The position numbers and the translations under genes were made by a program. Shown piece after piece: positions 14,576-20,756 of a stretch of 64,000 bases of DNA. How positions within the stretch are numbered: the first letter of the stretch is position 1; each line of letters begins with the position of its first letter. This stretch comes from Psychrobacillus glaciei (lineage in GTDB: Bacteria; Bacillota; Bacilli; Bacillales_A; Planococcaceae), in assembly GCF_008973485.1 (NCBI RefSeq), contig NZ_CP031223.1, positions 1,922,001-1,986,000 on the forward strand, read 5' to 3'. Below the pieces are notes generated by a model. That model worked only from the letters and a program-made list of their open reading frames with translations. It had not been told where the DNA came from and ran no database searches.

Positions 14576-14800
14576 TCAGCACCTCGTTAGCCCTTCAGAA
14601 TAGTCTAGCATCAGTTCTTCTCCTATAAGGTCAAAAAAGCTTGGAACTTCAAGGTTGATATTATTTTTAATTATGTTGATGATACGTTCTTTTAAATCCT
14701 GTTCTAGATCTTCACGGTAGTCATTTCTTGTTTGAAATAATACACTTTGCAGTTTGGGTTCCAGCTGTTTTATAATTGACAGAATATCATTTTCATCCAT
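14576..14800 (-). CDS. 74-aa hypothetical protein of the sigma/YvrJ operon
   Basis: Starts at ATG 14800, immediately after the TAA of the yvrJ-like gene, with the ribosome site GGAGGTG inside that gene. Acidic helical protein (MDENDILSIIKQLEPKLQ... ending EELMLDYSEGLTRC). Not recognised. Tight coupling to the YvrJ and sigma-like genes says it works with them. Confidence 0.65.
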   Translation of the reverse strand: MDENDILSIIKQLEPKLQSVLFQTRNDYREDLEQDLKERIINIIKNNINLEVPSFFDLIGEELMLDYSEGLTRC

Positions 14801-14974
14801 TTATTCACCTCCTTTTCTTTTTTTTATACTACCATTAACAACATTTTCTATACTGTGGACGGCATTTTCAAGGGATTCTAGTTTATTTTCAAAACGATGT
14901 AAGAGGTAGATACTAACGACAATAGGAAATCCAAAGTTTCCAATTAATTGTACGATGTTCCCTGCATCAATCAT
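14801..14974 (-). CDS. YvrJ family small membrane protein
   Basis: 57 residues from ATG 14974: one membrane helix (IGNFGFPIVVSIYLLHRF) followed by a charged coil (ENKLESLENAVHSIENVV). The NFGFP..VS.YLL.R.E pattern is that of the YvrJ family, which in Bacillus subtilis lies beside the SigO/RsoA genes. The start overlaps the end of the sigma-like gene by eight bases and GAAAGGAGA precedes it. Holin-like proteins of the BhlA/UviB type share this layout and are the alternative. Confidence 0.75.
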   Translation of the reverse strand: MIDAGNIVQLIGNFGFPIVVSIYLLHRFENKLESLENAVHSIENVVNGSIKKRKGGE

Positions 14975-15485
14975 GGGTAATCTCCTTTCTAATATTTTTT
15001 ATTACATTTCTTCTTGTCTTTGAGACAGCTTGTTGAGTAATACCTAAATATTGAGCAATTTCTTTATCTGTCATTTGCCTTACGTAAACAAGTGAAAGTA
15101 TTTCCTTTTGCCTATCAGTAAGTTTACTTAAACAATCAAACAAGTTATTGCTAGATATATGGTCAACAATGCCTTTAGAAAAACCATTTGAATCGGAAGA
15201 AAATGATTTCTCGAGATAAATTGGCGAAAGATCTAAATTACTTGTAAGATTTAATTGGTTTCTATTTTTATAAGCTCGCATCTTTCTATCAAAATGTTTA
15301 CTCTCATAGTGTAAAACTTTTATTAGATAGGATATAATTCTGTAATTTTGGTAATGTTTCTTAAATTTTGAATCAATCTCTAATTTTAATTCTTCTGAAT
15401 TAGTAGCTTTGAATTCTTCAAATAGTGTTCTGTTGGAAGGAAATCTTAAGAACTCTTGTATTATCTTCTGTTTTTCGGAACTCAC
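14967..15485 (-). CDS. sigma-70 family RNA polymerase sigma factor (SigO/phage-type)
   Basis: GTG 15485 is taken as start since GGAGGGG ends about eight bases upstream; a TTG at 15503 lies before that site. 172 residues. The C-terminal part is a clear region 4 with LTDRQKEILSLVYVRQMTDKEIAQYLGITQQAVSKTRR, a helix-turn-helix for the -35 element. The N-terminal part has a region 2-like helical segment with KHYQNYRIISYLIKVLHY. Gene order sigma, yvrJ, short acidic protein resembles the SigO/RsoA neighbourhood of B. subtilis and some phage late regulators. Target promoters are unknown. Confidence 0.75.
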   Translation of the reverse strand: MSSEKQKIIQEFLRFPSNRTLFEEFKATNSEELKLEIDSKFKKHYQNYRIISYLIKVLHYESKHFDRKMRAYKNRNQLNLTSNLDLSPIYLEKSFSSDSNGFSKGIVDHISSNNLFDCLSKLTDRQKEILSLVYVRQMTDKEIAQYLGITQQAVSKTRRNVIKNIRKEITHD

Positions 15486-16025
15486 TTTATCACCCCTCCA
15501 CAAATAAGAATCAAAGTTCTGATTTGGCGTGTGAAAAATAACGTGTTACTTCCTGATATTAAGATATATCTTGTCCTATAAAGGGAATTTCTTCGTGCTA
15601 TTAACAACCACTTTTCAAAAAAACTTTTTTTATTAGAAAATACGGTGTGCGTATGATGATTGCGTAAAGTGTAAGCATTAGATGTTTGATATTATACGTC
15701 TTAAGATACAATTAAGTGAAATAAATATTTAGTAAAAAGTAATTGTTCTTACCTAAATATTACTATAAATCAAACGTATATAGAACAAAAGTAGGTTGGG
15801 AAATATTGTTTTATACTTATATATATTCGTACGTAAATACTTCTAATTTCATAAAAGAAGGAAATTTTAATAATATATAATAACTTTTGGATTTCAGGCA
15901 TATCTATATATTATACTTGTTAATCACCTAATTAACTTCGTTGTAAAATGTCGAGCGATTGATAAAGGTTTTTTAAAATTTTTAAAGAACTAATATATGT
16001 ACTACGTTCATAGAGGTGGGGAAAA
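15486..16025. other. 540-bp divergent intergenic region
   Basis: Lies between the leftward sigma operon and the rightward HTH-TPR gene, so it holds both promoters. It is very AT-rich, with several TATAAT-like words (for example TATATAATAAC near 15875) that cannot be ranked by eye. No ORF with a ribosome site was found apart from the site GAGGTGGGG at 16013-16021 for the next gene. Confidence 0.5.
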
Positions 16026-17333
16026 ATGAGTAGTCTAGGGTATATCATCAAACAAGAGAGATTAGACCAAAAAATCAAACAGTCCGTATTAGCAAGGGGG
16101 ATCTGTTCTACTTCCTATCTCAGTAAAATCGAGAATAATTCGACTGTTGCGAGCGAAGAAGTAATAACATTTTTACTGAAAAGGCTGAATTTAGAGATAG
16201 GTAAGTTGTCAAACGAAGAGGAAAATAGGTTCATAGAAGCTTTTTATGAACAATATAAAAGAGCAGTTATTCAAAGGGATAAGGTATGGATCAGAGCATC
16301 CTTAAATGAGTTTTCTGTTCAAAAGATCTACTTTTTGAAACTAACAAATTTTTATACCTATAACCTTTATATGTTTCGATTAATGTTGATACTGAATGAA
16401 AAGCAAGAAATCTTACAATCCGCATATGATGTGATCATAAAAACGGAAGAGAAATTTGACGAAAAGCAAAGATTTTTATCAAATTTAAATATAGGAATTT
16501 ATTTATATTTAAATGGTGACTATTACAAAGCGCTAAGTAGATTAGAAAGATCCTTGAAATTTGTGAGTAATGTTTCGAATGAAGAATGGGAGGTAGCAGA
16601 TTTTCACAATGTACTTAGTTTGATTTACTTTAAATGTAATGAGTTTTTTAACACAATTAATTACGCTTCTAAATCATTGAAGTACTATAAAGACAATCTC
16701 CTATTTGAAAGAGCTATTGATAGCTATATCGTTATGGGAGTTGCACATAAAAAAATGAGAAAATATGAAGAAGCAGAAAAAAATTATAATCTAGCAAAAA
16801 AATTAGTGATAGATTATAAACTGGTTAATTATGAAGGGATGATTTATCAAAATATAGGTTCATTGCATGCAATACAGGGGAGTCATGAGAAGGCAATTGA
16901 GCATTACAAGCTCAGTTTAAAATGCAAGGAAGAAAACTTTAATACGGAAGGATATTTTATAACTATTCTTTCTATAATTAAGGAGTATTCCAAGCAAATT
17001 AATCATGTAGAGGTCATTAGATGGTGTGAAAAAGGTTTTGAGGCAATAGAGGATCTAAAGAATGAATATCATAAAGAATACCATTCCTATTATTGTCATC
17101 TAGAAATATATAGAGCTCTCCATTCTTCAACCGATGAGCTTGAAGTAGTACTAAAGAGAGGAATAAGTCATTTCGAGATGATCAATGACGATCGGCATAT
17201 ACAAAAGTATTCCATTTTATTGGCGAATTATTATTTTAAACAAAGTAAATTTAAAGCAGCTGATTTATATTATCAAAAATCAATACAAGTTCTGTTTAAA
17301 CAAAATTTTATTACGAAGTGGGAGGATTTGTGA
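16026..17333 (+). CDS. RRNPP-type quorum-sensing regulator (HTH-TPR)
   Basis: 435 residues. The N-terminus is an XRE helix-turn-helix (LGYIIKQERLDQKIKQSVLA...STSYLSKIEN, about residues 4-60). The rest is a superhelix of tetratricopeptide repeats, recognisable in GIYLYLNGDYYKALSRLE, MGVAHKKMRKYEEAEKNY and QNIGSLHAIQGSHEKAIEHY. This is the architecture of PlcR, NprR and similar regulators that bind a small re-imported peptide. Directly downstream, one base after its stop, starts a gene for a secreted pro-peptide, the usual arrangement of receptor and cognate signal. Target genes are unknown. Confidence 0.85.
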   Translation: MSSLGYIIKQERLDQKIKQSVLARGICSTSYLSKIENNSTVASEEVITFLLKRLNLEIGKLSNEEENRFIEAFYEQYKRAVIQRDKVWIRASLNEFSVQKIYFLKLTNFYTYNLYMFRLMLILNEKQEILQSAYDVIIKTEEKFDEKQRFLSNLNIGIYLYLNGDYYKALSRLERSLKFVSNVSNEEWEVADFHNVLSLIYFKCNEFFNTINYASKSLKYYKDNLLFERAIDSYIVMGVAHKKMRKYEEAEKNYNLAKKLVIDYKLVNYEGMIYQNIGSLHAIQGSHEKAIEHYKLSLKCKEENFNTEGYFITILSIIKEYSKQINHVEVIRWCEKGFEAIEDLKNEYHKEYHSYYCHLEIYRALHSSTDELEVVLKRGISHFEMINDDRHIQKYSILLANYYFKQSKFKAADLYYQKSIQVLFKQNFITKWEDL

Positions 17334-17334
17334 A

Positions 17335-17472
17335 TTGAAAAAGAAAAACGTATTGTTGTGTTTATCTTTAGTTTTGATCTTGATCTTAAGTTTTACAACC
17401 AACATTAGTAATACTGCTAAAGAAGAAGAAGTACCGAGACCTACATCAATAGAATACTCATCCTTTATATGA
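17335..17472 (+). CDS. signalling pro-peptide cognate to the HTH-TPR regulator
   Basis: 45 codons from TTG 17335, with GGGAGG nine bases upstream. The product has KKK at the N-terminus, a hydrophobic signal core (VLLCLSLVLILILSF) and a short acidic to neutral exported tail that ends EEVPRPTSIEYSSFI. Layout and position match PapR, NprX and Phr precursors, whose C-terminal 5-8 residues become the pheromone. The mature peptide is therefore probably within PTSIEYSSFI; exact ends cannot be read. It sits one base after the regulator stop. Confidence 0.8.
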   Translation: MKKKNVLLCLSLVLILILSFTTNISNTAKEEEVPRPTSIEYSSFI

Positions 17473-17513: not shown

Positions 17514-17550
17514 TACTCATCAGCCTAAGGGGCTGATGAGTACCTTTTTA
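17514..17550 (+). terminator. Rho-independent terminator of the quorum-sensing pair
   Basis: TACTCATCAGCC/GGCTGATGAGTA, 12 perfect pairs with a four-base loop, followed by CCTTTTTA. Confidence 0.85.
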
Positions 17551-19856: not shown

Positions 19857-20756
19857 ATGATAGAAACCTTAGCAAAGCAGATTCCTATTATTAGTAATTT
19901 TATAGACATAGTTCAAATTAAAAAAGGATTTTCAGCAGATGAAAAGTATCTAATACATTTTGATAATCATAAGTTACTTCTTCGGTTGTTTAACCTAGCA
20001 GAGCTTGAATCTAAAAAGATAGAGTATTCTATTTTAAAGAGAATGCAGGATTACAATGTTATGTGCTCACGACCGATTACTATTGGTGAGATAGGAAATC
20101 AAGGGTATATGATTACAACCTATATAGAAGGTAAAGATGCTGAAGAAGAAATCCGAAATTACACAGATCAAGAACAATTTAGTATTGGCATTGAGGCTGG
20201 TAAAGAATTAAAGAAAATGCATCAATATGTTGCCCCTAATCATGTCTCATCGTGGTATTCAAGAAAAGTGGAAAAACATAAGAAATACATGGACGCATAC
20301 TTAAAATGTGGCGTTAAAGTAAAGAATGATCAAAAAATAATGGATTTTATTGATAACAATATTCACCTAATGAAACAACGACCAAACTTATTTCAACATG
20401 ATGATTTCCATGTTGGGAATATCATTGTTAATAACAGGGGATTCTCGGGAGTAATTGACTTTAACAGGTATGATTGGGGTGATCCAATTCATGAATTTCT
20501 TAAAATTGGAATTTTTAGCAGAGAAATAAGTATTCCTTTTTCAATTGGACAAATCAGAGGGTATTTTAATAATGAAGAGCCCGATGAATACTTTTGGAGG
20601 ATGTATTCACTCTACTTAGCCATGTGCGTTTTTTCTTCTGTGGTATGGACTTTAAAAACTATTCCAGATGACATGAATAAGATGTTAGATAAAGTGTATA
20701 TGTTTTTAGAAGATCATGATTACTTCAGTAAATTAAAACCTAAGTGGTACATCTAG
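19857..20756 (+). CDS. aminoglycoside phosphotransferase-like kinase (APH family)
   Basis: 299 residues, ATG 19857 after GAGGTGAG. Kinase motifs of the APH/choline-kinase group: LFQHDDFHVGNIIVN (catalytic HxDxxxxN) and GVIDFNRYDWGDPIHEF (metal-binding D). The N-lobe has KLLLRLFN with a Lys/Arg pair. Family members phosphorylate aminoglycosides, macrolides or metabolites such as choline; this one is not clearly a known resistance enzyme. Confidence 0.8.
   Translation: MIETLAKQIPIISNFIDIVQIKKGFSADEKYLIHFDNHKLLLRLFNLAELESKKIEYSILKRMQDYNVMCSRPITIGEIGNQGYMITTYIEGKDAEEEIRNYTDQEQFSIGIEAGKELKKMHQYVAPNHVSSWYSRKVEKHKKYMDAYLKCGVKVKNDQKIMDFIDNNIHLMKQRPNLFQHDDFHVGNIIVNNRGFSGVIDFNRYDWGDPIHEFLKIGIFSREISIPFSIGQIRGYFNNEEPDEYFWRMYSLYLAMCVFSSVVWTLKTIPDDMNKMLDKVYMFLEDHDYFSKLKPKWYI

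Follow-up and report, generated by a model that had tools for sequence, protein, structure and literature searches.

The locus considered here holds a gene for an HTH-TPR protein and, one base downstream, a small ORF of 45 codons. It raises the question of whether the two form a receptor-peptide pair of the RRNPP type and, if they do, which genes the pair controls. The locus lies in a window of 64,000 nucleotides (G000:C1:1922001-1986000) taken from the 4.35 Mb genome of Psychrobacillus, a soil bacterium, which we call the source genome. An earlier note on this DNA had described it as a complete quorum-sensing cassette of the PlcR-PapR/NprR-NprX kind. We find very good grounds for regarding it as a genuine RRNPP receptor-peptide pair. 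The best candidate for its target would be a divergently transcribed operon for a SigO-like sigma factor, a YvrJ protein and an RsoA-like protein, which the earlier note had overlooked.

Receptor gene and pro-peptide gene

The receptor gene runs on the forward strand from the ATG at 16026 to the TGA at 17333 and encodes 435 aa. The ORF call, Pfam and a structural model assign to it an N-terminal HTH_3 DNA-binding domain (PF01381, 29.8 bits with a cut-off of 23) and nine helical pairs of the TPR type, and its length and TPR superhelix fit the RRNPP(A) criterion of about 250-500 aa. The nearest named relative that we found is from Psychrobacillus soli, with 84% identity. A phage origin was dropped, the receptor locus having no match in the phage collection. 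The source genome also encodes two related receptors elsewhere. One (L138 / L002, G000:C1:801285-802520; 26% identical) is RRNPP-like and has a small ORF, MKKAILLMLIMAIAIATNMNAEKVEAAIDSNEIYEMNSFPIHPPIVKD, 15 nt downstream, and behind the other (L003, G000:C1:935017-936237; 23% identical) no signal-like ORF was seen.

The pro-peptide gene begins with a TTG at 17335, one base (17334) after the receptor gene, and ends with the TGA at 17472 on the same strand; its product of 45 aa is (M)KKKNVLLCLSLVLILILSFTTNISNTAKEEEVPRPTSIEYSSFI. It consists of a basic N-terminus, a hydrophobic stretch, the acidic linker KEEE, the conserved word PRPTS and a variable end, IEYSSFI. The hydropathy and the early lysines fit a putative Sec signal. 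The short tail mentioned in the earlier note is present, as KEEEVPRPTSIEYSSFI; the conserved word is not its end, however, but the internal PRPTS. The candidate signal stretch in the tail is EEEVPRPTSIEYSSFI, and candidates for the derived peptide are EEEVPRPTS, VPRPTS, PRPTSIEY and PRPTSIEYSSFI, with APRPTSSGNTN as the counterpart from another clade. The ribosome-binding site of the small ORF is GGGAGG at 17320-17325 (forward strand), within the codons for the C-terminal WEDL of the receptor, an end that is kept among the orthologs (WEDF in one). The start codon, TTG in the window, is ATG or GTG in 16 of the 18 orthologs. The gene order with its single spacer base and the ribosome site were thus correctly described in the earlier note. 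Its strong terminator is borne out in part. A terminator-like hairpin with a 13-pair stem is found at 17514-17542 on the forward strand, and under loose criteria 14 of the 18 orthologs and an extra copy, L021, also have a hairpin behind the small ORF (a count without a shuffled control), but the crude terminator scan gave one hit with 1.0 expected per shuffle, so that the scan score alone is no evidence.

A signal-like ORF was defined as one of 30-60 aa with at least two K/R in residues 2-6 and a hydrophobic stretch; these criteria were fixed after the pro-peptide ORF was known, and the chance control was confined to the window. Of the 44 window ORFs of at least 150 aa, one is followed by an ORF of this kind at a distance of no more than 25 nt: the receptor gene, with the pro-peptide ORF. 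At 20,000 random window positions the same criteria were satisfied in 0.28% of cases, and in 0.04% when a ribosome site was included. Given its conservation and coding constraint (see below), the small ORF is to be regarded as a gene, and within the part predicted to be exported the best-conserved segment lies internally.

Conservation across Psychrobacillus

The receptor is present in 18 of the 19 genomes of the genus, and the window's receptor shares 59-84% identity with the other 17; genome G018 has a second copy (L021), which is 50% identical. The small ORF is kept in all 18 orthologs and also behind the extra copy in G018 (19 loci), with a gap of 0-1 base to the receptor in 18 of 18. The conservation beside orthologous regulators on which the earlier note had let its reading depend is therefore complete. 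In the alignment of 18 distinct small-ORF sequences, K2, E30, E32, P34, R35 and T37 are invariant. The conserved word is ExExPRxT, with PRPT in all but two sequences (PRVT, PRIT), and the end of the pro-peptide varies in both sequence and length.

Calculated over the whole ORF for three clades, L021 being left out, pN/pS is 0.49 (8 loci), 0.31 (7 loci) and 0.09 (3 loci). The acidic-plus-core segment has values of 0.23, 0.59 and 0.00 in these clades, compared with 0.47, 0.62 and 0.22 in the tail. By this short measure, the second clade keeps its core no better than its tail (0.59 vs 0.62). By this substitution pattern, the whole small ORF is under purifying selection, or coding constraint, in the relatives.

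Paralogs and family survey

A second system occurs in the genus. Its receptor, a paralog found in twelve genus genomes, is 27-31% identical to that of the window, and in 11 of the 12 loci a small ORF with the word DKPxIT, or a near form, overlaps the receptor stop. In one of them (L022, G008:C1:3715109-3719389) the pro-peptide holds five tandem copies of DKP(D/E)ITS, and since the word is tandemly repeated, the view that a proline-centred word is the signal is supported. Pro-peptides of the superfamily are known to carry tandem words, which among the atypically long ones were present in 17 of 17 of the NprR type (PMC9765709). The word of L022 is closer to that of NprX (KPDIVG) than PRPTS is. 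Another second-system receptor (L024, G001:C56) has an early stop where its pro-peptide would be, and may possibly be an orphan.

A profile of the two systems matched 157 of 250 family genomes at E up to 1e-15. For the family set we took 72 of the 74 hits that were listed down to E 4.5e-75 in genomes of other genera, two being passed over. Over genus and family together, a signal-like ORF lies within 25 nt in 82 of 103 receptor loci, and 81 of these 82 small ORFs match the loose pattern of a proline followed by one of R/K/G/D/E/P/S/L. By the set criteria no signal-like ORF was found at 20 of the 72 loci outside the genus and at one of the 12 second-system loci; at seven of those 20 the receptor is the first in a tandem pair. 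Such tandem receptors are seen in one genus of the family (g11: L047, L049, L051-L055 with L086, L078, L090, L064, L094, L067, L096), where the first receptor has no signal-like ORF and the second is followed by one with PRITS, PKITS or PRITG.

In the receptor tree the words group by clade: PRPTS in Psychrobacillus, and PRITS, PK(V/L/I)F, DKPEITS and others elsewhere. The tree omits rows below 250 bits (including the two paralogs of the source genome) and twelve duplicate loci, and its deep placements are unsure because of the long branches that carry the three named plasmid receptors and several more. The co-variation of receptor and peptide in relatives, which the earlier note had put forward as a check, was evaluated with a Mantel comparison over 81 loci. 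Receptor identity correlates with word similarity (r 0.654; none of 2000 permutations as high), but it correlates equally with the similarity of the signal part (r 0.692). The two genes therefore diverge together, as expected from co-inheritance, which is no proof of specificity, and the claim of a specific receptor-peptide coevolution was dropped.

Predicted structure

The AlphaFold2 model of the receptor has a mean pLDDT of 88.9 and comprises the HTH and nine helical pairs. In VIA-align it scores Z 31.7 against apo NprR (5dbk; 348 residues, 3.5 A) and the same value, 31.7, against apo RapI. Residues 64-424 are colinear with 67-418 of 5dbk, which has no HTH. Peptide-bound Rap proteins score about 28, and NprR with NprX scores 26.6, as does the unrelated TPR protein LGN. 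In Foldseek the Rap chains are on top and apo NprR is at rank 17. The profile search reaches Rap proteins, NprR and PlcR, and several Rap proteins outscore NprR.

PMC4970707 names the NprR residues that are involved in NprX binding, in locking the superhelix, in Spo0F binding and in dimerisation. By sequence alignment, R126, Y165, W167, H201, N306, D309 and R343 of NprR correspond to E125, G164, Y166, K203, G309, I312 and H349 in our receptor, and among the peptide-contact and lock columns only Y166 resembles NprR (the aromatic W167). The chemistry of the groove hence differs, since the NprX-contact residues are mostly changed. The residues that NprR needs for Spo0F are D107, Y118, E188 and Y223 (PMC4970707). 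Their counterparts are K105, M116, V190 and L225, none of the four identical to NprR, with E189 adjoining the E188 column. The column of NprR D107 and RapH Q47 has Q in 14 of the 18 orthologs. The dimer residue Y410 of NprR is Y416 in our receptor and is kept in 18 of 18 orthologs.

Divergent operon

The operon at 14576-15503 on the reverse strand is divergent from the receptor gene. Its candidate target genes, assigned with the help of synteny, encode a SigO-like sigma factor with region 4 (14967-15503; domain search), a YvrJ family small protein of 57 aa (14801-14974; domain search) and an RsoA-like protein of 74 aa, a sigma region 2-like partner (14576-14800; profile). The sigma factor has 178 aa when read from a TTG, although comparison with relatives makes the GTG at 15485 the more likely start. 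The NCBIfam RsoA model matches 11 of 11 members of the 74-aa family. The match of the window's own member (E 1.3e-5, 25.1 bits) is below the curated cut-off of 100 bits, and this protein matches the uncharacterised PRK14082 better (2.2e-11). In Bacillus subtilis, SigO and RsoA are described as two halves of one sigma factor, with yvrJ among their transcripts (PMC8103513).

The YvrJ gene adjoins that of the receptor in 18 of 18 orthologs, and the sigma and RsoA-like genes in 11 of 18, whereas the downstream neighbours of the pro-peptide gene (VC0807-like, MerR) are found at few loci. Of the seven genomes whose receptor locus is without sigma and RsoA-like genes, three hold a more distant copy elsewhere and the other four do not. 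The sigma factor hence cannot be the only target, because the receptor persists at all seven loci. The sole genus genome without the receptor gave no YvrJ, SigO-like or RsoA-like match. RsoA-like genes occur in 73 of the 250 family genomes. We looked at 15 loci of the sigma-YvrJ-RsoA module elsewhere (5 in the genus, 10 in the family); none has an RRNPP receptor within about 3 kb, and tblastn recovered all three module proteins in 14 of them. Examples of the module without an RRNPP neighbour are L133-L136 and L140-L149. As far as examined, the link between module and receptor is peculiar to this receptor and to Psychrobacillus.

Sequence between the divergent genes

A candidate operator, CCTAAATATTACTA with GTTGGGAAAT, lies at 15751-15804 and is conserved between the divergent genes; it is AT-rich and defined by its footprint only. 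CCTAAATATTACTA is kept in the 11 orthologs with the sigma gene and takes a weaker form, ATACTAAA, in the other seven, and GTTGGGAAAT is kept in most orthologs without sigma too. GTTGGGAAA is found in the other two clades and is absent from the clade of L017, L018 and L020, and TCTTGTCCTATAAAGGGGAT is found near the sigma start in the clade of the window. Comparison of orthologs also gave a conserved block 5' of the divergent operon at 15571-15588 on the reverse strand (TTGTCCTATAAAGGGAAT in forward-strand letters), which is possibly part of its promoter. Genome-wide, the block before the sigma operon has 4 matches compared with 6 in the reversed control, which is no excess, and the intergenic region has 15 pairs of inverted repeats in AT-rich DNA, none of them decisive. 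With 0-1 mismatch, TCCTAAATATTACTAWAA has one site in the genome, the locus itself (15751-15768), and a single site fits a local regulator. With up to three mismatches it has 39 matches, fewer than the 57 of the reversed control, so that no regulon can be called; a shared operator across the genome was dropped for this reason.

A SigH-like promoter position of the receptor gene was found at 15964-15990, and just 5' of it a Spo0A-box-like heptamer, TGTCGAG, at 15949-15955, both on the forward strand and both assigned with what we take to be the SigH and Spo0A consensus sequences. Sites of the SigH type, 60-72 nt before the receptor start, have 0-1 mismatch in 13 of the 18 orthologs and up to two in 16, with none at L006 and L007; the background is 0.053 per 150 nt for 0-1 mismatch and 0.36 for two. 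The window's own site has two mismatches, which are common by chance, and would not stand alone. The Spo0A-box-like match precedes the SigH-like site in 14 of the 18 orthologs (background 0.018). The orthologs being related, neither set of counts is independent. SigH is present in the source genome, as are ten matches to oligopeptide-binding proteins.

Proposed mechanism and alternatives

We consider it probable that the locus is an RRNPP pair of NprR-like architecture whose two products are made together, whose peptide is exported and re-imported, and whose receptor controls the shared region locally. At the transition to stationary phase, the SigH-type promoter, to judge from its conserved sequence, would probably raise expression. 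The ribosome site in the receptor's end and the gap of 0-1 base make co-transcription and translational coupling of the two genes probable. The pro-peptide would leave the cell through Sec, and cleavage by signal peptidase with further trimming would yield a short signal bearing PRPTS; that the signal contains this word is likely. By analogy with the family, the signal would be taken up by an oligopeptide permease, bind the TPR groove and alter DNA binding by the receptor. Synteny and the locus-specific conserved motif suggest that the receptor acts on the shared intergenic region, 15486-16025, and so on its own operon and the divergent one. Direct control of the SigO-like/YvrJ/RsoA-like operon, or of YvrJ where sigma was lost, is the assignment toward which we lean slightly. 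The fuller proposal is that the PRPTS quorum signal gates a two-chain sigma factor (SigO-like and RsoA-like) together with YvrJ, the RRNPP pair having captured a module that is free-standing in other genera; we put it forward tentatively, with somewhat less than even confidence.

The proposed target may be questioned. The pair could be real with its target elsewhere, the SigO/YvrJ/RsoA operon being a stable neighbour under its own control. The three-gene module stands alone at the 15 loci examined, and seven species have retained the receptor although, of the three genes, their locus now has YvrJ alone, sigma and RsoA-like genes having been lost. Against this, YvrJ is divergent from the receptor in 18 of 18 orthologs while the VC0807-like and MerR genes adjoin it at few, and there are conserved blocks between the divergent genes, the best of them without a second good copy in the genome. 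We regard a target elsewhere as a possibility of some weight, though a doubtful one.

The function of the two proteins may be questioned as well. The receptor might have a dual function like the NprR of Bacillus thuringiensis, binding Spo0F too and delaying sporulation without peptide in the manner of Rap. Its fold matches that of RapI as closely as that of apo NprR, Rap chains precede apo NprR in Foldseek, several Rap proteins rank above NprR by profile, SigH is present, and Q, the RapH residue, fills the D107/Q47 column in most orthologs. Nevertheless, no Spo0F contact of NprR is identical in our receptor, and all 18 orthologs have M/L at the second Spo0F column and L at the fourth, which makes a Rap-like action on Spo0F appear unlikely. 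For the small ORF, a hydrophobic N-terminus alone would fit a peptide that is bound to the membrane or secreted, such as an anchor or a leader, and is no signal for the receptor. This we hold to be very improbable in view of its position and coupling, the conserved hydrophilic PRxT tail in 19 of 19 loci, the tandem amplification of the word in the paralog and the family pattern (82 of 103 loci).

Surveys of the superfamily describe such an architecture and thousands of pairs (PMC9765709, PMC10075063). Their main texts contain no mention of Psychrobacillus, Planococcaceae, Lysinibacillus or Sporosarcina, and their supplements may list the pair. A full-text literature search on RRNPP quorum sensing in Psychrobacillus returned no paper, and of the papers found to contain both RsoA and quorum sensing none is, by title, about a link between a receptor and a sigma factor. 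The sigma-factor link, which is unproven, would be the more novel part. The analysis adds to Psychrobacillus a receptor-signal pair whose word is defined and conserved, and the 82 natural receptor-peptide loci are material for decoding which residues read which word. The proposed output, a split sigma factor, is testable.

Comparison with known systems

The two systems named in the earlier note compare differently with the locus. The PlcR-PapR system shares with it an HTH-TPR regulator, to which the profile match extends over 2-216, and a downstream pro-peptide. The solved PlcR chain, however, has 293 aa and about five repeats, compared with 435 aa and nine helical pairs here, and no PlcR box (motif as we presume it to be) was found within one mismatch between 8288 and 63411. 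A PlcR-type identity was ruled out by the length, the repeat number and the missing box near the locus.

The NprR-NprX system of the Bacillus cereus group (PDB 4gpk, 5dbk) has the same HTH and TPR superhelix, a pro-peptide gene directly downstream and a proline-centred word; its pro-peptide is of the Sec type (PMC9765709), and ours has a signal-like N-terminus. The differences are that R126, H201, N306, D309, the lock Y165-R343 and the Spo0F contacts are not kept, and that the word is PRPTS rather than KPDIVG and is not at the very C-terminus. Since the residues contacting NprX and Spo0F are mostly not kept, the name NprR-NprX denotes a type and not an ortholog.

Two NprR-NprX systems are reported for Priestia koreensis FS-1 (PMC10075063), and a plasmid of this strain encodes a related receptor (28% identical over 98%), presumably that of one of the two. 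Its pro-peptide tail, SEEEFPEPTVAQVLI, has the acid-P-x-P-T pattern of the window's pro-peptide, and this resemblance places our pair near the NprR-NprX cluster in a broad sense. The FS-1 system differs in being plasmid-borne with other neighbours, and its place in the tree, on a long branch, is unsure, so the tree does not settle the matter.

In SigO-RsoA of Bacillus subtilis and in the window alike, a region-4 sigma factor, YvrJ and an RsoA-like protein are adjacent; here the module faces an RRNPP pair, and its RsoA-like match is under the cut-off. The Rap-Phr systems (RapI, RapH, Rap3T) share the TPR superhelix, but Rap proteins have no HTH, which our receptor has, and the Spo0F contacts differ save for the Q at one column in 14 of the 18 orthologs. 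The nearest case of an RRNPP receptor switching on an alternative sigma factor would be ComRS-SigX of streptococci, in which the receptor is of the Rgg type, the peptide export is different and the sigma factor is a single chain; we claim no homology between that system and the one described here.
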